Source of the DNA: Brasilonema angustatum HA4187-MV1
GTDB taxonomy: Bacteria; Cyanobacteriota; Cyanobacteriia; Cyanobacteriales; Nostocaceae
DNA length: 64,000 nt
Reading direction: 5' to 3'
NCBI GenBank assembly: GCA_019359695.1
Contig: JAHHGV010000022.1
Span: 1-64,000 of the forward strand
The notes below the pieces were generated by a model, which saw only the letters and a program-made list of their open reading frames with translations, was not told the origin of the DNA and ran no database searches. Both the position numbers and the translations under genes were made by a program. The first letter of the stretch is position 1; each line of letters begins with the position of its first letter. This document shows positions 2,470-55,646 of the stretch, piece by piece.

Positions 2470-4626
2470 ATGTCACAAAATCCCAATTTAGAACAAGCGC
2501 TAAAATATTACTTTGGCTACGATAGCTTTCGCCTCGAACAGCGACAAATCATTGAGCAAGCGCTACAAAATCGGGATTTAATGATTGTCATGCCGACTGG
2601 TGGTGGAAAGTCGCTGTGTTTTCAACTACCAGCATTGTTAAAAAAAGGTTTAACCGTGGTGGTGTCGCCGCTGATCGCCTTGATGCAAGACCAAGTGGAA
2701 GCACTGCGAGATAATGGAATTGCCGCAACATTTCTTAATAGCAGTCTTAACGCTCATAAAGTGCGATCGCGCGAAGAATACATCCTCACTGGTAAAGTAA
2801 AACTCCTCTACGTCGCCCCAGAACGCCTGCTGAGTGAAAGATTTCTCCCCTTTCTTGATTTAGTACATCACCAAGTTGGCATTTCAGCCTTTGCGATTGA
2901 CGAAGCACACTGCGTTTCTGAGTGGGGACACGACTTTCGTCCAGAATATCGCCAATTGAAATCAGTACGAAAACGCTACCCAGATATTCCCGTCCTTGCG
3001 TTGACTGCGACAGCAACTGAGCGTGTCCGTGCTGATATTATCCAACAACTTGGGTTAAAGCAACCAAGTATCCATCTCGCTAGCTTCAACCGCACAAACC
3101 TTTACTACGAAGTCCGTTCTAAAACGAAGTATGCCTACGCCCAATTATTGGAACTCATTCGGGAAACAGAAGGTTCAGCAATTGTCTATTGCTTGACACG
3201 CAAAAAAGTTGATGAACTGACTTTGAAGCTGCAACACGATAAGATTTCAGTCTTGCCTTATCATGCTGGATTAACTGATGAAGAACGCACCAAAAATCAA
3301 ACTCGATTTATTCGAGATGATGTGCGTGTTATGGTGGCAACAATTGCCTTTGGCATGGGAATTAACAAACCAGATGTCCGGCTAGTCATTCACTTTGATA
3401 TCTCCCGTAATTTGGAAAGTTACTATCAGGAATCAGGTAGAGCTGGCAGAGATGGAGAACTATCTCGCTGTACACTCTTCTACAGTTACGGTGATGTCAA
3501 AACTATTGAATTTCTGATTAACCAAAAACCAGACCCTCAAGAACAGTTGATTTCCAAACATCAACTGCGGCAGATGATAGACTACACGGAAGGAACAGAT
3601 TGCCGACGGACAATTCAGTTAGGTTATTTTGGGGAACGTTTTGCAGGTTCTTGTGGGAACTGTGACAACTGTCGTTATCCCAAACCAGTAGAAGATTGGA
3701 CAATTGAAGCCATGAAGTTTTTATCTTGTGTGGCTCGATGTAAAGAAAGATTTGGCATGGGTCATATTATAGATGTTTTGCGAGGAGCAAAAACCCAGAA
3801 AATCACTCAATACGATCACGACAAACTTTCCACCTACAGTATTGGTAAAGATAAAACTACAGATGAGTGGCGAATGCTGGGGCGTTCTCTGTTGCATCAA
3901 GGGTTACTAGAACAAACTGCTGACGGTTATGCTGTGTTGAAACTCAACGCTTTAAGTTGGGAAGTGATGCGGCGACAGCGAACAGTTTCTATTGCAGTTC
4001 CTGTAGTACAAAAGATAACTTGGGACGAAGGAAATGAAAAAGCAACAGAGGTGGAAATACTGTTGCAAAGGTTGCGTGCTTTACGCAAACAAATTGCTGA
4101 TGCGCAGTCCGTTCCACCTTACGTCATCTTTGCTGATTCTACTCTAAAATTAATGGCGCAGGTGCAACCCCAAACCTTAAAAGAATTCAATAAACTTTCT
4201 GGCGTAGGTAGCCAGAAAGTTTCCAATTATGGTGAAAAATTTATTGCGGAAATTCGCACCTACCGCCAAGAGCAAGGTTTGCCAGAGCAACAAGATAATT
4301 CTACTCCTTTTTTAGGCTTACCTTCCGAAACTGAATTATTGACTTTACAGTTACACCAACAAGGTCTTAGTGTGACAGAAATTGCTGTAAAACGTAATCT
4401 TCGCCCGACAACAATTATTCGTCATCTTTCCGATTTAATAGAGAAGAATCAGTCAGTAGATTTTAATTTGTTAGTTCCTATAGAAAAGCAGCAAAAAATT
4501 TTGCAAGTCTTAGAAATTCTTGGTGATATTTCCCTAACACCCATTAAAGAATATCTAGGTGATAACTATAGTTTTGATGAAATTCGCTTGGTAAGAGGAA
4601 AATGGCGACGGGAAAGTCAAAAATAA
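2470..4626 (+). CDS. recQ: ATP-dependent DNA helicase RecQ
   Basis: A 718-residue superfamily 2 helicase that unwinds DNA 3'-5' in recombination and fork repair. Walker A is MPTGGGKS (GGGK 44-47) and the DEAH box is at 144-147, followed by [13 protein letters not shown]. Motif VI is [10 protein letters not shown]. The zinc-binding cysteines of the RecQ C-terminal region are at 378, 395, 398 and 401. An HRDC-like segment (about 545-600) and a C-terminal helix-turn-helix repeat (about 625-665, with [21 protein letters not shown]) follow. Length and domain order are those of full-length bacterial RecQ with the extra HTH. It looks intact. Neighbours suggest no operon. Confidence 0.95.
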
Positions 4627-4764
4627 TATGCGTGTTATTTTTTTAGTATATCAGTATAAACCCGTAGACTTAATTCTTGTCTTTATAATAATCTTTACGT
4701 TTTTTTTGCCCAAGCATTTATAAAAGCTGGGTACAATTGCGTATAATCAAGTAAGTAACAGGAT

Positions 4765-6222
4765 ATGTTCAACCAAATATTTACGGGTTTTGCTGATTAT
4801 GAAAGTGTCAACGAGAGTTATCTTAGGCAAAGGCAACTCAGAGGAAATACGGGTTTTTGGCTGTTATGGAGCTATGGAGTCGGCGTTGTCATATCAGGTA
4901 ATTTCACTGGGTGGAACTCTGGTTTGATAGCAGGCGGCTTTTGGGGGATGGCAATTGCTACCCTGCTAATGGCAATCATGTATATATGCCTAACCTACAG
5001 TCTGTCTGAAATGTCAGCGATGCTCCCGTATACGGGAGGGCTTTACTCCTTTACGCGCACTGCCTTTGGTCCGTTTTGGGGCTATATATGCGGTGTAGCC
5101 ATGATTATTGAGAACGTACTTGCTCCAGTTGTAGCTGTGATTGCTGTCACCAGTTACTTAAAACCGTTAATTCCTGGTGTACCGACCTATCTTGTGTGGG
5201 TGGTGATCTACGCTATTTTCACAGCGATTAATATCTGGGGGATGGAACAGACTTTCAATCTGGGTTATGTGATCACGCTCATTGCGCTGATAATCTTAAC
5301 AGTATTCTATGTATTAATACTGGCATTGGGCATTTTCAAAATGAACCTTCTTTTCAATGTTCCTGCTAATACAGGGCAATTGGCAACGTGGTTGCCCAAA
5401 GGTGTGTCAGGGATTTTCGCCGCGATTCCTTATGCTATCTGGTTTTACCTGGCAATTGAGCAACTTCCACTAGCTGCTGAGGAAAGCCGTCACGCCTCTG
5501 AGCAGATTCCTCGTTCTCTGATAGCAGCCATGTTCACTCTGGTTGTCCTTTCAGTATTTACCTTGGTATTAAATTCTGGCGTAGGCAATGGTGCTGTTGC
5601 TGTTGGTCAATCAAGCGCTCCATTGGGATATGGGTTAGAAGCTTACTTTGGTAAAGGTCCGGTTACTACCTTTTCCACAGCAGTCTTAATGTCTTGTGGC
5701 TTGCTCGCTAGCTTCCATTTTACGATCTACGCCTATGGACGAACATTCTTCTCTCTTGCCCGTGCTGGATACATCCCGCGCTGGCTAGCGGTTACTGGCA
5801 AAAGTTATACCCCTTACAGGTCATTACTTTTGGGTACGGTAGTTGGATTGATTTGTGCAGTTACTATTGATGTTTTAGGGGGTTCAGTCAAAGATGTCAT
5901 GTTAAATATGGCAGTTTTTGGGGCATTAATCATCTATATTTTGGTGCTATTGAGCTATATCAAGCTCAAGAGTACTCATTCCAATTTACGAAGACCGTAT
6001 CAAAGTCCACTAGGGATTTGGGGTGCGGCTGTTGGTGCTTTACTGGCAATCGTTGCCTTGCTTGCTTGTTTGTGTGTACCCGCATACCAGCCTGGTGCTT
6101 GGGGTGTTGCTACCTTCATAGTCATAGCAATTCTGTACTTCTTGTTTTACAGCAGAAATCACTTAGTTGCTCAGGCTCCCGAAGAAAAGGCAGCACTCAC
6201 AATAATCAAACAGCAAGTTTAA
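4765..6222 (+). CDS. APC-family permease, ethanolamine-permease-like
   Basis: A 485-residue integral membrane protein with about 12 hydrophobic segments. The opening LRGNTGFWLLWSYGVGVVISG and the later YSLSEMSAMLPYTGGLYSFTRTAFGP are close to the ethanolamine permease (Eat) branch of the amino acid-polyamine-organocation superfamily. The conserved EQLPLAAEE helix is also present. It would import ethanolamine or a small amino compound by proton coupling. No ethanolamine ammonia-lyase genes (eutBC) are in the window, so the substrate is uncertain. It stands alone with 138 bp upstream and a repeat-filled gap downstream. ATG with AGGA just upstream. Confidence 0.8.
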   Translation: MFNQIFTGFADYESVNESYLRQRQLRGNTGFWLLWSYGVGVVISGNFTGWNSGLIAGGFWGMAIATLLMAIMYICLTYSLSEMSAMLPYTGGLYSFTRTAFGPFWGYICGVAMIIENVLAPVVAVIAVTSYLKPLIPGVPTYLVWVVIYAIFTAINIWGMEQTFNLGYVITLIALIILTVFYVLILALGIFKMNLLFNVPANTGQLATWLPKGVSGIFAAIPYAIWFYLAIEQLPLAAEESRHASEQIPRSLIAAMFTLVVLSVFTLVLNSGVGNGAVAVGQSSAPLGYGLEAYFGKGPVTTFSTAVLMSCGLLASFHFTIYAYGRTFFSLARAGYIPRWLAVTGKSYTPYRSLLLGTVVGLICAVTIDVLGGSVKDVMLNMAVFGALIIYILVLLSYIKLKSTHSNLRRPYQSPLGIWGAAVGALLAIVALLACLCVPAYQPGAWGVATFIVIAILYFLFYSRNHLVAQAPEEKAALTIIKQQV

Positions 6223-46943: not shown

Positions 46944-47162
46944 TTACGAATACTGACGTTCTTGAGCGAGATCACGGATCAGTGCTAGCCGAGATTTAAC
47001 GTAGTCACTGAGAAAATCGCTTTCATGACAATCTAGCAAAGCTTGGGTTTTGATTTGTTTGACCAACCATTGTACCAAGCTAGCATCATCGAGCTGCAAT
47101 AGCGTCTTCGTTTGTGTAGTTTCCACTACAGACCAAAGCTGACGCATAACTTTGGGAGTCAT
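46944..47162 (-). CDS. small conserved cyanobacterial protein
   Basis: A 72-residue, mostly helical soluble protein (MTPKVMRQLWSVVETTQTKT start; SDYVKSRLALIRDLAQERQY end). I recall similar hypothetical proteins in other cyanobacteria but no function. It is convergent with ribD. Its upstream ATTAG-ACC-TCC region contains a GGAGG on the coding strand 6 bases before the ATG, a good ribosome site. Confidence 0.65.
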   Translation of the reverse strand: MTPKVMRQLWSVVETTQTKTLLQLDDASLVQWLVKQIKTQALLDCHESDFLSDYVKSRLALIRDLAQERQYS

Positions 47163-47726
47163 TAGACCTCCATTGAAGATTAAGCTTAGCTGTTTTCAGG
47201 ATACACAATTGTGGTAGTCAGTTTCGGTCTTAATGTAGAGGCTGACACAAGTGTTATTAAAAACTTAATATATTGAGTTATAAGTTGATGATGATTAAGG
47301 ATTAATAGTTTTAAATAATACCTGAACAAAAAGTAGTATTGTTGTGCGCTGCATGAGTTTTGACTTTTTGCTTGTGTTGTTCTGCGTCTCAACGTCTACC
47401 TGTGCTGTACGTTCGCTTATTTTTCAGATTTTAGACAATTTTGTAAATACTTGTTAAGCACACAATCAATTTTATTTTGATTGAGTAGTGAAACCAAATA
47501 TGCTGATTGCTAAGTTTGAGAAACTTAGTTTTTTAAAGCTTTACTTTTGTTTACAAATAACCGATGAAGGAGATCCAAAAAAATGCTTACCCTTCAATAA
47601 TTGATTGGGCACTTTTGTACAGTGACAGATTATTTGTCATCGGTGACAGATGAGTGTCGTCACTCAAATACCAACAATTGACCCTAAGTTGGTGAAATAC
47701 CAAGGTTGGTTACGCCACTCACAATC
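47163..47726. other. AT-rich gap
   Basis: No gene. 47618-47665 contains GTGACAGATTATTTGTCATC and GTGACAGATGAGTGTCGTCAC, two short palindrome-like motifs 20 bp apart that could be protein-binding sites. Confidence 0.4.
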
Positions 47727-48049
47727 ATGAGCAATGAATACTTTCAGCTACCCATTCAACGAAATGGCTCAAAAGTGAAATGCTTACAGCAGCGTAGCCT
47801 CAAGCTAAACAAGGAAAAGCTTGCTGGTATTTCTGTTGGCAATCCGCAACGAGAAACTGTACGTCCTACTACGGAACTTCTTCTTGCTGCGTTCAAGGAA
47901 ATCACATCGCGTATTGATTGAGGTGAAAAACGAAGTTTATGCCCATTTAACTCCTCTTTTACTGTTACAGAGGGCGTATTCTTGTTTTACTTGGCTTTCC
48001 AACTACTATTTACACTCAACTTGGTGGTCGATCTTTTATCCTTGAGTAA
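47727..48049 (+). pseudogene. decayed transposase, C-terminal remnant
   Basis: Reading through two frameshifts (near 47908 and 47973) gives KCLQQRSLKLNKEKLAGISV, then GNPQRETVRPTTELLLAAFK, then EVYAHLTPL and finally RILVLLGFPTTIYTQLGGRS before a stop at 48047. The RPTTE-LL-AF and LTPL-x-RIL-LLGF patterns occur at the C-termini of several cyanobacterial IS transposases. The N-terminal catalytic part is gone. I cannot name the IS family. It lies 90 bp before the calmodulin-fusion gene, a trace of past mobility there. Confidence 0.6.
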
Positions 48050-48139
48050 ACTTTTTTCGCGCCTCCCGAAAAAAATGGGCGAACCGGGAGTTACAATACT
48101 TATGACAAACTTATTTTTATATAAAAATTGAAAAACTAT

Positions 48140-51100
48140 ATGGATACAAGTATTATAAAGCTAAAAAGAACCTTTGAAATGTTTGATAGAGATGGCAGTG
48201 GAGCGATAAGTATCAAAGAACTGAAGCAGGTTCTACAAGCACTCGGACAAAGTATTACAGAAATCCAACTACAGGAAATTATAGCCGAAATTGATACAAA
48301 TAGTGATGGTGAAATTAGTTTTGAAGAATTTTCCTCGCTCAGTATTATTTCTAGAGACACCCAAAGTCAAGAGCAAGATTTGATGCAAGTGTTTCAAAAG
48401 TTTGACAAAAATGGTGATGGCTATATCGATGTTCAGGAAATCAGTAGCGAAGCGATGTCAATCCTGAACAAAAATTTATCAGAATCAGAAATTATTGAAA
48501 TGTTTCGGATTGCCGATAATGATGGCAATGGTCAATTAGATTACGATGAGTTTGTTAAAGTCATCATGGCCAAGAGTGCGGAGGTGGTATCTTCTGACAC
48601 CCTTGAGATTTCGCCTAAGTTAATTGGTTTCCAATTTGTTCGCGACATTCCAGAACAAGCTTGGAAAATTGTCGAGCAGCTTCAACAACAAGCAAATTCT
48701 CATACAGCTTTTAATCATCCCTATCTTCAACGATTGGCAGAAGGTCATTTACCTGATGTCATGGGAGCATTACAGGATTTTGCAGTACAGTACGCTCAAT
48801 ACAGTAACAATTTCAAAACTTATCTCGATTTAACGATTTCTCAACTCACTAATCCAGAACATCAAGAATTAATTCTGGAGAATTCTCAAGAAGAGAACGG
48901 TGATTTAGACGAGTGGTCTCCAAAACAGTTAACAGATTTAGGCATTGATTTAGAGTGGGTAGACAAGATTCCTCATACCCTGTTGTTCAAGAGGTTTCAG
49001 AAGGCTTTGGGAGTAACTAAAGCAGATTTCGATCAAGTTTGCCCCGAAGCCCTACAATTCCGAAATCGGATCCAGGAGATTTGCTCGCAAAATGTTGCCT
49101 CGGCGATTGGTGCGATTGGATTAGCAGGAGAATTGGGAGTCAGCCAAATCTATACCTATATTCTTCAGGCGATAAAACGCTACACGCCCCTTGCTCCGCG
49201 TGAGTATGTCTTTTTTACTCTCCATACTCAAATGGATGACGAACATACTCAAGCTTTAAAAGCGATCGCGGCAGATTTAGCAAATACAGAAGAAAGTCGA
49301 AAACAACTTTCTCAAGCAATGACAATGGCGCTAGAAGCCCGTAATTCATTTTGGGATGCTTTGCTAGAACGGGCTTTGAAAATGCCAGAGAGCAAGAATA
49401 AATTTGTCTCTCCAGACCAATTGTACGAAACCAACAGTCAAAAATGGGTGCGAAAAGAACCCTCTTGTTTATCCGATTTTACAGCTCGTCCAGCAATTTT
49501 TGAGTTATGTGAACCAGTTAAAGATGCCGTCATCCTCGATCTCGGTTGCGGTGAGGGATACTGTGCGCGGGAATTAATGCGCCGAGGTGCAAGTAAAGTT
49601 ATTGGAGTGGATATCTCGGTTAGTTCAATCGCTGCAGCCCAAGCTGAAGAACAGCGCGAACCGAATGGTATTACCTACCTTACAGGGAATTCAACCAATG
49701 TAAGGCAATTACTGAAAAACCACCGCGTTGTGGAGGAGTCAGAAGGGTTCGATCTGATTGTGGCTGTATTTTTGTTTAACTACCTCACCTTCCATGAAAT
49801 GGTGCAGTGTATGACGCAAGTTGAGCAGTTGCTCAAACCAGGTGGGCGATTTATTTTTTCTATTCCCCATCCTAGCTTTGCTTTTTGGAGTAAACCTGAA
49901 GCCACCTTCCACTTCGATGTCGCAGCTTTCAATGGAAGTGAGAATAAGTCCTTGGGTTACTTCTCAGCTCGCGATCGCCTCTTACCAGGAACAATATCCC
50001 GTCGAGATGGTACGAAACTACCCGTGCAAGTCCGACACAAAACCATGCAGGATTACTTTGATGCCCTACGCGAGAGTGGTTTTGTAACTTTGCCTCAAGT
50101 ACAAGAGCTAAAGGTGACAGACTCACATCTTCAGCTAGATCCTTCCTTTTTTGGCAGCCTAGAAGATGTGCCACTCCACATGGCATTTAGCATTGAAAAG
50201 CCTGAATTCCCAACACCAAAACGGTTAACTCAATCCAACAAAGCAATTATTCCAGATATTCTTTGGTCGGGAATTTTCAGTGAAGAGGATTACTGCTTTC
50301 AATTTCCTTCAAAAGCTTTGGAAGAATTTTATCAAGCACGCATACAACTCCAAGCAAATAATATTACATGGGAAAATTATCACATAGGTGATGCAGGAGA
50401 ATTACCCCACTTACAAGCTTTTGCCCATAAAATGCGCGACTGCTGTTATGACACGACTGGCTTTGTTCTGATTCAAGGATTACCCCTAGAGGAATTTGGC
50501 AATAGCTACGAAGAGCGAGAAGCAACAGCCAAACTGCTCTACTATATGATGAGCGTCGAAATTGGTCTTGTTTCGGAACGAAGGAGTCGTCTTTTTGATG
50601 TGCGCGATCGCGGTTTAAATGTTGCCGATGATAATGTACTGTTTTCCGTCACCAAAGAAGCCTCTGGTTGGCATACTGACAGCACCGATAAAAACTTTAA
50701 CCCAGATATTGTTGGCTTGCTCTGCTTACAAGATGGTAAAGAAGGAGGAGTGTTACAAAACGTCAACGCCCTCAATGTTTACTACCGCCTCAAGCAGATT
50801 CTGCCCCAGTCGATTTTTGAAGAATTGGAACAACCGATTATTCGCGACCTAATTGAAAAAGGCTTAGGTAAAGATTCTGGAGATACTTGGGAGCAACTGC
50901 GACGTAGTTCTTCACTGGGCGTGCAAAACTATCGCGTGATGAATAATCGCTTTCCTATCTTCAGCCGCGATCCCTATACTAATGAGTTTACCTGTCGCTA
51001 TATGCGTTACTGGATTGAAAGTGGTCACAAGAAGGCAAATGTTCCTCTATCACCACTGTTGAAAATTGCCATTAATACTCTCGATCAAGTGATAGATAAC

Positions 51101-51277
51101 GACCCAACAATTTATCGAGTTGAAAGAAAATTATGCCCTGGAGAAATTATTTACACCAATAATCATATCTGCTTGCATAACCGCACCGCCTATGAAGAAA
51201 AAGTCGATCAGCCTCGAAGACATATGGTAAGGGTGTGGATTGACTTTAATCCCCAGTGGAGTTTAGAAAGACAATAG
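48140..51277 (+). CDS. calmodulin-like/haem-oxygenase-like oxidase/methyltransferase/TauD fusion
   Basis: A 1045-residue four-part protein with no stop or frameshift. Residues 1-145 are calmodulin-like, with four canonical EF loops at 16-27, 52-63, 89-100 and 126-137 (e.g. DKNGDGYIDVQE). Residues about 160-410 form a haem-oxygenase-like di-iron oxidase: HPYLQRLAEGHLP, GLAGELG (E331) and H362xxxD366xxH369. Residues about 420-690 are a SAM methyltransferase (VILDLGCGEGYCARELMRRG, GVDIS, LKPGGRFIFSIPHP). Residues about 700-1045 are a TauD/TfdA dioxygenase with Fe ligands H845-x-D847 (GWHTDST) and H1013, and a likely 2-oxoglutarate Arg near 1027-1031. The whole suggests a Ca2+-regulated multistep tailoring enzyme, possibly for an amino acid. 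Start ATG 48140; a TTG lies four codons upstream. No clear ribosome site. Substrate and product unknown. Confidence 0.85.
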   Translation: MDTSIIKLKRTFEMFDRDGSGAISIKELKQVLQALGQSITEIQLQEIIAEIDTNSDGEISFEEFSSLSIISRDTQSQEQDLMQVFQKFDKNGDGYIDVQEISSEAMSILNKNLSESEIIEMFRIADNDGNGQLDYDEFVKVIMAKSAEVVSSDTLEISPKLIGFQFVRDIPEQAWKIVEQLQQQANSHTAFNHPYLQRLAEGHLPDVMGALQDFAVQYAQYSNNFKTYLDLTISQLTNPEHQELILENSQEENGDLDEWSPKQLTDLGIDLEWVDKIPHTLLFKRFQKALGVTKADFDQVCPEALQFRNRIQEICSQNVASAIGAIGLAGELGVSQIYTYILQAIKRYTPLAPREYVFFTLHTQMDDEHTQALKAIAADLANTEESRKQLSQAMTMALEARNSFWDALLERALKMPESKNKFVSPDQLYETNSQKWVRKEPSCLSDFTARPAIFELCEPVKDAVILDLGCGEGYCARELMRRGASKVIGVDISVSSIAAAQAEEQREPNGITYLTGNSTNVRQLLKNHRVVEESEGFDLIVAVFLFNYLTFHEMVQCMTQVEQLLKPGGRFIFSIPHPSFAFWSKPEATFHFDVAAFNGSENKSLGYFSARDRLLPGTISRRDGTKLPVQVRHKTMQDYFDALRESGFVTLPQVQELKVTDSHLQLDPSFFGSLEDVPLHMAFSIEKPEFPTPKRLTQSNKAIIPDILWSGIFSEEDYCFQFPSKALEEFYQARIQLQANNITWENYHIGDAGELPHLQAFAHKMRDCCYDTTGFVLIQGLPLEEFGNSYEEREATAKLLYYMMSVEIGLVSERRSRLFDVRDRGLNVADDNVLFSVTKEASGWHTDSTDKNFNPDIVGLLCLQDGKEGGVLQNVNALNVYYRLKQILPQSIFEELEQPIIRDLIEKGLGKDSGDTWEQLRRSSSLGVQNYRVMNNRFPIFSRDPYTNEFTCRYMRYWIESGHKKANVPLSPLLKIAINTLDQVIDNDPTIYRVERKLCPGEIIYTNNHICLHNRTAYEEKVDQPRRHMVRVWIDFNPQWSLERQ

Positions 51278-52011
51278 ACTTTCAGCGAGAGCGAACAAAT
51301 GAGGGTAAACATTACTTAGCTACTCATAACCGCAGTCATTTAACTTGGATTCAGCAAATTCACGTTACATGAACCTATCCCACTATTCTAAAAATACCTA
51401 CTTGTTTAAGTAAAATGCATCTGAAAAGCTTAATTTCTGGTTTTTAGTTCTCAATATGCTTAAGCTTTTTAGCACAAATTCTATTAGTGGGATAAATTTA
51501 TATAACTATCGTTATCCAAAAGGGCTATTTCGTGGAACACACCCCTTGAACAGGTTATTTTCGACGGCTCGCGCACCTCGCTTGTCGAAAATAACCCGCT
51601 ATCATGATGATCATGATGGCAATTAAAATAAACGCCCTTAAAAATATTTTGTAAATCCCAACTTTTAACCGATTGTTGGTAAAACTGCATTCTGGCTGCC
51701 CTAGCGGGAATACCTACCCTTATTCTGTCGAGTTTCGCCGCATGTCTACGCTGGATACCTTCTTGTTGAATGCCCAATCATCAAAAGTTGGTAAAATGGA
51801 AAAAAGTGAACCTCCCTTCGGCGCTCTTAAATTATCTATACTCTCTGCGTACTCTGCGCCTCTGCGGTTTTTTTAATCGGTAATCTTCCGGCGAGAAAGG
51901 AGTAATGACTATGAACTAGTTCCCACTCAGGTATGATGGGCAATCTACCTCTAAGCTGACAGAATCGCAGTATATGGCGTGATAATAAAGCCATGCAAAG
52001 GATGAACAGTC
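51278..52011. other. gap downstream of the fusion gene
   Basis: Contains a perfect 13-bp-arm hairpin (GGTTATTTTCGAC) at 51553-51596 whose loop is GC-rich (GGCTCGCGCACCTCGCTT), then ATCATGATGATCATGAT at 51601. CCAACTTTT at 51659 and AAAAGTTGG at 51782 form inverted ends around 130 bp. No gene recognised. Confidence 0.5.
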
Positions 52012-52485
52012 ATGATTAAATCGTGGATGGTGATTGGGGGAGTCGCTTTTGTAGTAGCGTTGGGTGCTAACATTATTACTCCAGGCGATCGCAAATGGTT
52101 CAAACGTCTGCAACGACCGAGATGGCTCACTTTTGAAGCAGCGATTCCAGTTATTTGGACTATTATATTTATTTGCGGTGCTTGGTCTGCTTATATTGTT
52201 TGGGAACAGAACCCAGGAACCACCCCAACTTGGGTGCGCATGGGATTGTATCTACTTCTGGAAATTCTGACTATTGCGTATACCCCTGTCATGTTCAGGC
52301 TTCGCAGTCTTAAAGCTGGTACGATTCTCGGCGGCGCGGGTTTTATTGTAGGCATTATATTAACACTTGCAGTTTTACCTATTTCTGGTTGGGCAGCACT
52401 ACTCCTGGTTCCTTACTTGCTTTGGAGTCCAATAGGGACATATACCACTTGGGCAATGATGCAACTTAATCCTCAAGATGTCTAA
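52012..52485 (+). CDS. TspO/MBR-like membrane protein A
   Basis: A 157-residue, Trp-rich protein with five predicted helices. GDRKWFKRLQRPRWLTFEAA followed by IPVIWTIIFICGAWSAYIVW corresponds to the W-L-x-R-P-x-W and P-V-W-T motifs of the tryptophan-rich sensory protein family, and LLVPYLLWSPIGTYTTWAMM then QLNP to its C-terminal PYLxW-x-x-x-x-x-Y signature. TspO proteins bind tetrapyrroles and respond to light or oxygen stress. The N-terminus MIKSWMVIGGVAFVVALGAN fits helix 1. Its paralog follows. Confidence 0.75.
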   Translation: MIKSWMVIGGVAFVVALGANIITPGDRKWFKRLQRPRWLTFEAAIPVIWTIIFICGAWSAYIVWEQNPGTTPTWVRMGLYLLLEILTIAYTPVMFRLRSLKAGTILGGAGFIVGIILTLAVLPISGWAALLLVPYLLWSPIGTYTTWAMMQLNPQDV

Positions 52486-52618
52486 AGTGAGTGGAGAAGG
52501 TCACGAGGATGATACTACTTAATTTAAACATTCCAACCTACGGTTGATTAAACCCAGATGCCAAATTGTCACAATTGCCTTAAATAGATTGACAAAAATA
52601 TCAAAAAGTGCATTAACT

Positions 52619-53092
52619 ATGATTCAATCTTGGATGGTAATTGGGGCTGTGACTTTTGCGATCGCAGTTGGTACCTTTTTCATCACGCCTGGTGATGTTA
52701 AGTGGTTTGCACAGTTAACTCGCCCTAAGTGGTTGGTTTTTGAGCCGCTGATTCCGTTGATCTGGACTGTTGTATTTGTTTGCGGTGCAGCTTCTGCCAA
52801 TATTGTTTGGCAAAAAAATCCCGGAAGCTTGATCAGTTGGCTCCTGATGGGTTCATTTGTTCTACTCGAAATCATTACCGTCTCATACATTCCAGCAATG
52901 CTTAGATGGCGGAGTCTCAAAGTTGGGGAAATTCTTGGATCAGTTGGTGTGATATTAGGTGTGCTGCTGACACTCTCTATTTTGCCGATTTCTAAATTTG
53001 CAGCGCTGCTACTTCTGCCATACTTGGCTTGGAGTCCAGTGGGAACCTACACAACCGAGGAATTAATCCAGCTTAATCCTAAAGATGCGTAG
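52619..53092 (+). CDS. TspO/MBR-like membrane protein B
   Basis: A 157-residue paralog with identical length to the preceding gene and the same five helices. GDVKWFAQLTRPKWLVFEPL, PLIWTVVFVCGAASANIVWQ and LPYLAWSPVGTYTTEELIQL are present. The last motif carries Glu-Glu in place of Trp-Ala, so tetrapyrrole contacts may differ. The start at 52619 is chosen because it aligns with the paralog; the frame extends 25 residues upstream without homology. A tandem duplication that has diverged. Confidence 0.75.
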   Translation: MIQSWMVIGAVTFAIAVGTFFITPGDVKWFAQLTRPKWLVFEPLIPLIWTVVFVCGAASANIVWQKNPGSLISWLLMGSFVLLEIITVSYIPAMLRWRSLKVGEILGSVGVILGVLLTLSILPISKFAALLLLPYLAWSPVGTYTTEELIQLNPKDA

Positions 53093-55169: not shown

Positions 55170-55646
55170 TCAGTAATCGTAGCGCCCGTGACGGTAATAT
55201 CTGTACGGGTTGTGATAGATAGAGCGGTCATAAATATGCTGGGGATGGTAGCGCCTGTGTTGGTGATACCTGTTGTAATAATCATCTCGCCCACGGTACT
55301 CAATGTACTGGGGATGGTAGCGCCTGTGTTGGTAATCCCTATTGTAATAATCATCTCGTCTGCGGTAATCAATATACTCGGGATGGTGTCCGCGACGGTA
55401 GTAAGATCTGTAGCTTTGTGGGCAAGGTCTATGATAACGGTAATATCGACGAGTCTTGTAATGATGGTGTTTATGATTTTTTAGTTGTTCAGCATCAGTC
55501 TCCCAATCTTCCTGTTGAGCAACTTGCGTTCCTAATTTTTCATAGTTTGGCTGTGTTTGAATTTCTTTTTGGACAGATGCTGTGGCTACCTCTAATCCAA
55601 GACAACTGGGTAATAGTAAAGCACTAATTACGAATTTCCAAAACAT
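55170..55646 (-). CDS. secreted Tyr/His/Arg-rich repeat protein
   Basis: A 158-residue protein with a signal peptide (FVISALLLPSCLGLEVATAS). The second half is made of about 23-residue repeats, RRGHHPEYIDYRRRDDYYNR, HRRYHPQYIEYRGRDDYYNR and HRRYHPQHIYDRSIYHNPYR, each separated by 2-3 residues. Tyr, His and Arg make up most of it, and pI should be very basic. Repeats agree also at DNA level, so they are recent. No domain is recognised. Its composition suggests a wall- or sheath-bound, metal- or polyanion-binding protein; this is inference. Confidence 0.65.
   Translation of the reverse strand: MFWKFVISALLLPSCLGLEVATASVQKEIQTQPNYEKLGTQVAQQEDWETDAEQLKNHKHHHYKTRRYYRYHRPCPQSYRSYYRRGHHPEYIDYRRRDDYYNRDYQHRRYHPQYIEYRGRDDYYNRYHQHRRYHPQHIYDRSIYHNPYRYYRHGRYDY

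Follow-up and report, generated by a model that had tools for sequence, protein, structure and literature searches.

In the 64,000-nucleotide stretch of Brasilonema angustatum HA4187-MV1 DNA analyzed here (contig JAHHGV010000022.1, hereafter the window), a single gene encodes a protein of 1045 residues in which a calmodulin-like module is fused to a haem-oxygenase-like di-metal oxidase (HDO), a class I S-adenosylmethionine (SAM)-dependent methyltransferase (MT), and a TauD-type Fe(II)/2-oxoglutarate (2OG) oxygenase (Table 1). The new and larger finding is that the catalytic parts of this fusion are a recurrent gene cassette, composed of MT, HDO, and Fe/2OG oxygenase genes, which many other cyanobacteria carry as separate genes side by side. 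With a probability of roughly 60%, we consider the fusion to be a single-chain form of this cassette, which would methylate and twice oxidize an amino-acid-like metabolite with calmodulin as the sensor; the substrate, the product, and the gating by Ca2+ are what we infer from the domains and their relatives.

Apart from matches to EF-hands only, whole-genome protein searches returned mainly stand-alone MT genes about 46–55% identical to the MT domain (47–55% for the 17 stand-alone genes compared with it), and a stand-alone HDO gene adjoins nearly all of them. Among the 63 loci with an MT or HDO gene, 59 carry both. These 59 loci are a non-random set picked by similarity to the fusion, mostly to its MT, and the sources of the loci were 16 of the 17 other genomes matched in the first search, 40 of the 50 MT rows of a family sample, nine of the ten newly matched genomes of an order draw (the tenth, Microseira, described below, was excluded), and one plasmid. 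Counting neighbors within 5 kb, an Fe/2OG oxygenase is present in 53 of the 59 loci, either of a type that we call c4 (41 loci) or of the TauD type (12 loci). An HDO-cupin fusion occurs in seven loci (L109–L115, checked with Pfam on L109) and a cupin gene beside the HDO gene in one. The genus g23 has the nearest colinear arrangement, in which all seven fetched genomes carry HDO-cupin, MT, and TauD genes consecutively, arranged as in the fusion (further members of the genus without a match are possible beyond the matches listed). The MT and TauD genes of g23 overlap by 4 nucleotides and the HDO gene lies 20–31 nucleotides ahead of the MT gene; in one of these loci, L110, the HDO, MT, and TauD sequences are 45, 49, and 38% identical to the corresponding domains of the fusion. 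HDO and c4 share one frame in a single genome (L117).

The c4 protein tested had no Pfam or NCBIfam match. The family is about 335 residues long (for example L060, 4098–5108, minus strand, with relatives in alignment A2), and an invariant HSD...H pattern runs through that alignment. Its structural model, of moderate confidence with a mean predicted local distance difference test (pLDDT) score of 71, has a helical start followed by a strand-rich part. The best Foldseek match was KanJ (7.0e-6, TM about 0.3), and VIA-align gave a putative oxygenase, PHD2, and PtlH at Z-scores of 10.2–10.1. The c4 proteins are therefore predicted from the model to be a group of Fe/2OG oxygenases, and because of the fold and the HSD...H pattern, c4 and TauD seem to occupy one slot in the cassette. 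A DHDPS-family gene without a c4 or TauD enzyme is found in five of the 59 loci; in L067, L075, L094, L096, and L103, it replaces both the c4/TauD gene and the H-NOX gene beside MT-HDO (Pfam for L103, similarity for the rest). The initial annotation of the window, made from the letters alone, had proposed that the protein may act alone because no other pathway gene is adjacent. The window indeed has no such neighbor, but acting alone is doubtful since relatives add a cupin or a DHDPS-family gene, so that the fusion may have a partner or a dedicated substrate elsewhere.

Two further observations concern individual loci. On an alphaproteobacterial plasmid of Indioceanicola profundi (L064, 5926–10423, plus strand), HDO and MT genes stand in a row with a 452-residue frame, a 280-residue frame that by eye has an HxD motif, and a gene for a TylF-like methyltransferase. 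Frames that by eye resembled ATP-grasp ligases (L048, 3135–4013; L064, 7444–8799) had no Pfam match, and we make no claim for them.

The fusion gene itself is one unbroken frame from an ATG at 48140 to a stop codon at 51275–51277, as the initial annotation had stated; an in-frame TTG at 48128 would give a protein four residues longer. Along the protein, Pfam matches follow one another in the order EF-hand (four stretches), Haem_oxygenas_2, Methyltransf, and TauD, all above the gathering scores, which bears out the earlier assignment of a calmodulin unit, di-iron oxidase, methyltransferase, and TauD dioxygenase to one chain. The residues named at that time (E331, H362, D366, and H369 in the HDO, the LDLGCGEGY motif at 466–474 in the MT, and H845, D847, and H1013 in TauD) are correct, but the list overlooked E252, H279, and the likely 2OG-binding R1027. 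As judged from the sequence, each domain has kept its residues for metal and cofactor binding.

Table 1. Features of the calmodulin-HDO-MT-TauD fusion gene, in window coordinates.
Feature	Positions	Strand	Basis
Whole gene, calmodulin-HDO-MT-TauD protein, 1045 residues	48140..51277	+	Open frame; architecture repeated in Microseira (L027)
Calmodulin-like module, residues 1–147, two EF-hand pairs	48140..48580	+	Pfam EF-hand_7 1.7e-32; calmodulin 8aht 3.0e-33
EF loop 1, DRDGSGAISIKE, residues 16–27	48185..48220	+	Pattern scan
EF loop 2, DTNSDGEISFEE, residues 52–63	48293..48328	+	Pattern scan
EF loop 3, DKNGDGYIDVQE, residues 89–100	48404..48439	+	Pattern scan
EF loop 4, DNDGNGQLDYDE, residues 126–137	48515..48550	+	Pattern scan
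HDO domain, residues ~165–415	48632..49384	+	Pfam Haem_oxygenas_2 2.7e-17 (213–401); profile matches; all-helical model
Six predicted metal ligands, E252, H279, E331, H362, D366, H369	48893..49246	+	Alignment A1
Class I SAM-dependent MT, residues ~418–690; motif I LDLGCGEGY at 49535–49561	49391..50209	+	Methyltransf_25 3.4e-16 (465–569)
TauD-type Fe(II)/2OG oxygenase, residues ~715–1040; H845, D847, H1013, R1027	50282..51259	+	Pfam TauD 2.3e-19 (769–1033)

The presence of a di-iron fold in residues 160–410, on which the initial annotation depended, was checked and is supported: the Pfam match is above its cut-off, the six predicted ligands are present, and the model is all-helical. The columns of the six predicted ligands are nearly invariant (90% or more) in the 22 rows of A1, and E252 and H279 complete a set of three histidines and three carboxylates (3H/3C). 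This set within a helical bundle, which characterizes the HDO superfamily, is found here as a predicted metal site. AlphaFold2 modeled residues 160–415 as all-helical, with pLDDT of 75–98 over residues 161–410, read here and below as means of 10-residue blocks. Since the best 50 Foldseek matches listed for the full model are methyltransferases only, the evidence for the HDO fold comes from sequence profiles and the helix pattern rather than from a structural match. The model has a helix break between H362 and H369, in agreement with PMC13108848, which describes core helix 3 of HDOs as flexible. A profile of the 22 rows matched a 4-aminobenzoate synthase (CADD, 4.2e-26), the 4-chloro-allylglycine synthase BesC (4.4e-22), and HrmI (2.7e-15), which we take to be an N-oxygenase. 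SznF matched this wider profile weakly (E = 0.045); a profile built from the fusion's own HDO group had eight matches, with neither SznF nor HrmI among them. Both profiles have two 4-aminobenzoate synthases, one of them CADD, and BesC as their first matches. With CADD as the nearest HDO, we considered a 4-aminobenzoate synthase function. However, Leu196 of the fusion occupies, in a gapless stretch of the alignment, the position of the source tyrosine of CADD (presumably Tyr27), with Tyr195 one residue off. On the basis of this alignment, the self-sacrificing route to 4-aminobenzoate is unlikely, and the candidate was dropped; with TIGR04305, for which the cut-off is 200 bits, the window protein scores 60.1.

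In the MT domain, the LDLGCGEGY motif and a Methyltransf_25 score of 60.1 bits against a threshold of 27 identify a class I SAM-dependent enzyme, and AlphaFold2 gave pLDDT of 66–97 over residues 451–690. The best solved match of the MT profile is 8rdl (1.3e-24), whose entry carries the name 'ToxA protein' and the title xenorhabdin methyltransferase XrdM. It is followed by ToxA of Burkholderia glumae, and among the other matches are N-methyltransferases for phosphoethanolamine and glycine. The TauD domain has the HxD...H facial triad and the 2OG-binding arginine of its family, and H845, D847, H1013, and R1027 are invariant in seven aligned rows. Its profile matched FrbJ (1.3e-32), then 7n7v, a 'Predicted hydroxylase' (1.4e-25), and then gamma-butyrobetaine dioxygenase (5.5e-13). 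Two stand-alone TauD relatives matched the NCBIfam models of trimethyllysine, gamma-butyrobetaine, and trimethylaminoethylphosphonate (TmpA) dioxygenases far below the equivalog cut-offs, and the window protein reached 25.0 bits against 414.75 with TIGR02409, under the cut-off for a gamma-butyrobetaine/trimethyllysine dioxygenase.

The N-terminal module is calmodulin-like from end to end. Residues 4–145 align with residues 9–149 of the calmodulin structure 8aht, EF-hand_7 matches in two stretches and EF-hand_1 (3.2e-29) in four, and all four loops are canonical, with 12 residues each starting at 16, 52, 89, and 126, giving the two pairs of EF-hands typical of calmodulin. AlphaFold2 gave pLDDT of 49–83 over residues 1–150. 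The EF-hand matches in the genomes of the family were considered as further fusions; L101, the one scanned, proved to be an EF-hand plus Erv1/Alr protein. This gene (3003–5384, plus strand) is a second fusion of a calmodulin-like module with a redox domain, of the Erv1/Alr type, in these cyanobacteria, and L099 (3937–6318, plus strand) is a similar candidate, judged from its calmodulin match and length only.

Microseira wollei NIES-4236 has a protein of identical domain order, with 80% amino-acid identity to the window protein. This was the only relative returned by a degenerate-pattern scan of genome contigs, a search that detects close relatives only, and the gene, which is broken in Microseira, came up a second time when 388 genomes were sampled from the order. 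Between the two copies, the ratio of nonsynonymous to synonymous substitution rates (dN/dS) is 0.154 over 1033 codons, and 0.17, 0.18, 0.19, and 0.09 for calmodulin, HDO, MT, and TauD, respectively. A second genome with the same architecture and purifying selection in every domain indicate that the fusion is real and, as far as codon comparison tells, selected as a protein; an artificial joining of two genes by sequencing or assembly, a possibility raised with the initial annotation, is thereby ruled out. The window copy is the only intact fusion found in the whole-genome searches, including the family and order samples. A 1229-aa open frame in genome G301 had seemed to be an HDO-MT fusion, but the 1090-aa frame upstream encodes a GAF/HAMP/MCP protein, with the MT gene of G301 divided over two contig ends. 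The two copies of the fusion have different neighbors, a ribD-like gene upstream and TspO genes downstream in the window, and a panC/cmk-like gene upstream and a transposase-like frame downstream in Microseira (names other than TspO assigned by eye), which suggests movement of the fusion.

Most stand-alone cassettes are linked to the nitric-oxide sensor H-NOX. An H-NOX gene lies within 5 kb in 45 of the 59 loci with MT and HDO, and in a family sample of 192 genomes, 41 of the 50 MT matches have an H-NOX gene no more than 10 kb away (median 1.6 kb), while 41 of the 92 H-NOX matches have an MT gene beside them. In the counts from the family sample, which are not independent owing to shared ancestry, the window's own genome, rows matching calmodulin only, and two short H-NOX pieces were excluded (92 of 94 H-NOX rows used), and G301 enters twice as two halves of one MT gene, so that the 50 matches stand for 49 genomes. 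At least six families (f1, f11, f17, f26, f34, and f36) contribute linked cassettes. The H-NOX protein tested beside a cassette is closely related to Alr2278 (2.9e-75), a protein of known structure, and the partners of H-NOX in the scanned loci are an HNOBA histidine kinase or an HNOBA-GGDEF-EAL protein. H-NOX (PF07700) had no match in the whole genome of the window, with Caulobacter vibrioides as a positive control genome, and none was found in six further genomes of the genus. In one locus (L063, 9022–12000, plus strand), a histidine kinase with the N-terminal domain of ethylene receptors (ETR1_N, 8.8e-33) adjoins an MT/TauD/HDO cassette; as a single case, an ethylene reading was not built upon.

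The nearest solved matches of the MT, TauD, and HDO domains favor N-methylation, oxidation beside the nitrogen, and an HDO step. In such a scheme, the MT would methylate a small substrate of the amino-acid type, most likely on nitrogen, the TauD domain would oxidize the substrate, perhaps beside the methylated nitrogen, and the di-metal HDO would carry out a desaturation, a C–C cleavage, or an N-oxygenation. The fusion might hold the intermediate on one chain, and Ca2+ binding to the calmodulin module might switch or dock the catalytic part. By analogy, calmodulin would take the sensor role that, beside most stand-alone cassettes, may belong to H-NOX and the HNOBA kinase or GGDEF-EAL protein paired with it. 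If so, the product is probably a small metabolite related to signaling or stress rather than to bulk metabolism.

Several observations weigh against this single-chain cassette with a calmodulin sensor. The gating by Ca2+ is suggested solely by the fused module. The fusion lacks the cupin of the nearest colinear cassette in g23, and no cupin match was found in the window's own genome in a search that had no positive control. The only other full-length copy, in Microseira, is broken by a nonsense codon and by roughly 390 bp inserted close to the HDO's end. Nitrogen as the methyl acceptor is an assumption, as C-methyltransferases also occur among the solved MT matches. The AlphaFold2 model is poor for TauD, with blocks mostly below 50 after residue 810; this part is unreliable because the underlying alignment lacked TauD relatives (the full-length alignment had almost no TauD rows, and MAFFT misplaced TauD and calmodulin rows). 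In midpoint-rooted FastTree trees with local support values, the MT and HDO of the fusion cluster with cassettes without H-NOX (support 0.975 and 0.972, respectively), namely L064 and L109–L115, together with L116 for HDO and L063 for MT. The replacement of the sensor is thus an analogy and no traced event. The TauD tree places the fusion with the H-NOX-linked L048–L051, away from L063 and L109–L115, so that the three catalytic parts do not point to one common history, and the HDO of the fusion is only about 24–31% identical to H-NOX-linked HDOs.

The link to H-NOX might also be read as a sign of nitric oxide (NO) chemistry, in which the cassette would yield an NO-releasing product, either N-oxygenated or N-nitroso, the adjoining H-NOX would read the NO, and calmodulin would start the synthesis in the window. 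The H-NOX genes beside 45 of the 59 fetched cassettes and 41 of the 50 MT matches of the family sample are in line with this idea, as are the N-oxygenase HrmI (2.7e-15) among the matches of the wider profile and the HDO-cupin and stand-alone MT genes of seven genomes, which amount to the parts list of SznE and SznF as given in PMC11705231 and PMC13108848. However, H-NOX signals the sensing of NO and not its production, and a link to H-NOX is absent from the group to which the fusion belongs. The cupin is missing from the fusion, SznF matches poorly (0.045), and the own-group profile has neither SznF nor HrmI among its eight matches. No conserved extra glutamate before H279, like the fourth carboxylate of SznF (3H/4C), was seen by eye in the sequence alignment, in which the L117 row, taken from the wrong half of the protein, was disregarded. 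We regard NO-related chemistry as unlikely, and the HDO sequence does not speak for it. Joining calmodulin to the same idea, one could picture a non-haem bacterial counterpart of the Ca2+/calmodulin-controlled nitric-oxide synthase, in which calmodulin would switch amino-acid methylation and di-iron/2OG oxidation to an NO-releasing or N-oxygenated signal, a chemistry shared with the H-NOX-linked cassettes; this is highly improbable and offered as speculation.

The fusion or its relatives could instead modify a protein or a cell-surface glycan rather than a free small molecule. In Indioceanicola, the surroundings of the HDO and MT genes include a weak match to glycosyltransferases, a gene for a DegT aminotransferase, and the TylF-like methyltransferase gene, and by eye, glycosyltransferase-like frames (c5) and one DegT-like frame (c10) lie near some cyanobacterial cassettes. 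Characterized HDOs, however, have for the most part been connected with amino or fatty acids as substrates according to PMC13108848, which also mentions ribosomal-peptide modification. There seems to be only a small chance that a macromolecule is the substrate. A decaying or non-functional fusion, intact by chance in this genome, would agree with the nonsense codon and the ~390-bp insertion in Microseira, the only genome beyond the window where our searches found the fusion, and with the different neighborhoods of the two copies. It is hard to reconcile with the dN/dS of 0.154 over 1033 codons, the value below 0.2 in each domain, and the intact catalytic residues and EF loops, and we think decay improbable. 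A functional single-chain cassette under a calmodulin sensor remains our preferred reading.

Around the gene (47000–52000), neither promoter-like sites (13 versus a shuffle mean of 11.4) nor terminator-like sites (3 versus 4.4) were in clear excess. No Rfam family was found in the region at the gathering threshold, and repeats were few, short, and imperfect. On its 3' side lie tandem TspO/MBR-family genes (52012–52485 and 52544–53092, plus strand; Pfam 9.2e-33 and 2.9e-22). Further on, a 158-residue frame rich in His, Tyr, and Arg (55170–55646, minus strand) has RRYHPQYI-like repeat units and no Pfam match.

Titles and starts of abstracts of open-access papers contained, among the matches listed, no such fusion and no MT-HDO cassette beside H-NOX; subscription papers lay outside this scope. 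Within this scope, the absence of an identical fusion agrees with the novelty supposed in the initial annotation. That interpretation was right about the domains and the single real chain, and its Ca2+-gated series of two oxidations and a methylation on one substrate is a prediction; the cassette and the H-NOX context were beyond its view. To our knowledge, few effectors of cyanobacterial Ca2+ signaling are known. Cyanobacterial H-NOX proteins have well-known structures, and the portions of the literature at hand state no pathway for them. One oxidative cassette might provide both a candidate effector for the former and a candidate pathway for the latter. As one expressible chain, the fusion would allow the cassette, the order of reactions, and the Ca2+ response to be assayed together, and it gives a direct way to test which substrate the widespread H-NOX-linked genes act on.

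Among known systems, HDOs of the BesC/CADD type are the best profile matches of the fusion HDO and have the six-ligand 3H/3C set in common with it. They differ in that the fusion HDO is joined to calmodulin, MT, and TauD and has Leu196 in place of the CADD tyrosine, and its stand-alone relatives matched the TIGR04305 and BesC models below cut-off. In the streptozotocin pathway, the guanidino N-methyltransferase SznE and SznF, an HDO with a cupin, produce an N-nitroso compound from L-arginine (according to the available parts of PMC11705231 and PMC13108848). Their combination of methyltransferase and HDO is alike, and the relatives L109–L115 even have the cupin on the HDO, whereas the fusion has an additional Fe/2OG oxygenase, an HDO distant from SznF (0.045), and no cupin among the 25 listed of 39 Pfam families, its four domains filling its length; membership in the SznF type was rejected for the missing cupin and the weak HDO match. 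FrbJ is the solved structure nearest to the TauD domain, and the matches to the gamma-butyrobetaine, trimethyllysine, and TmpA dioxygenases score far under every curated cut-off. The EF-hand plus Erv1/Alr proteins of related genomes likewise carry an N-terminal calmodulin-like module of four EF-hands on a redox protein, but their catalytic part is different, without HDO, MT, or TauD. In the Nostoc H-NOX (Alr2278) systems, for which two papers, in their accessible text, mention no enzyme cassette beside H-NOX, the sensor is closely related to the H-NOX protein beside a stand-alone cassette, whereas the genome of the window carries the cassette as one calmodulin-fused chain without H-NOX.

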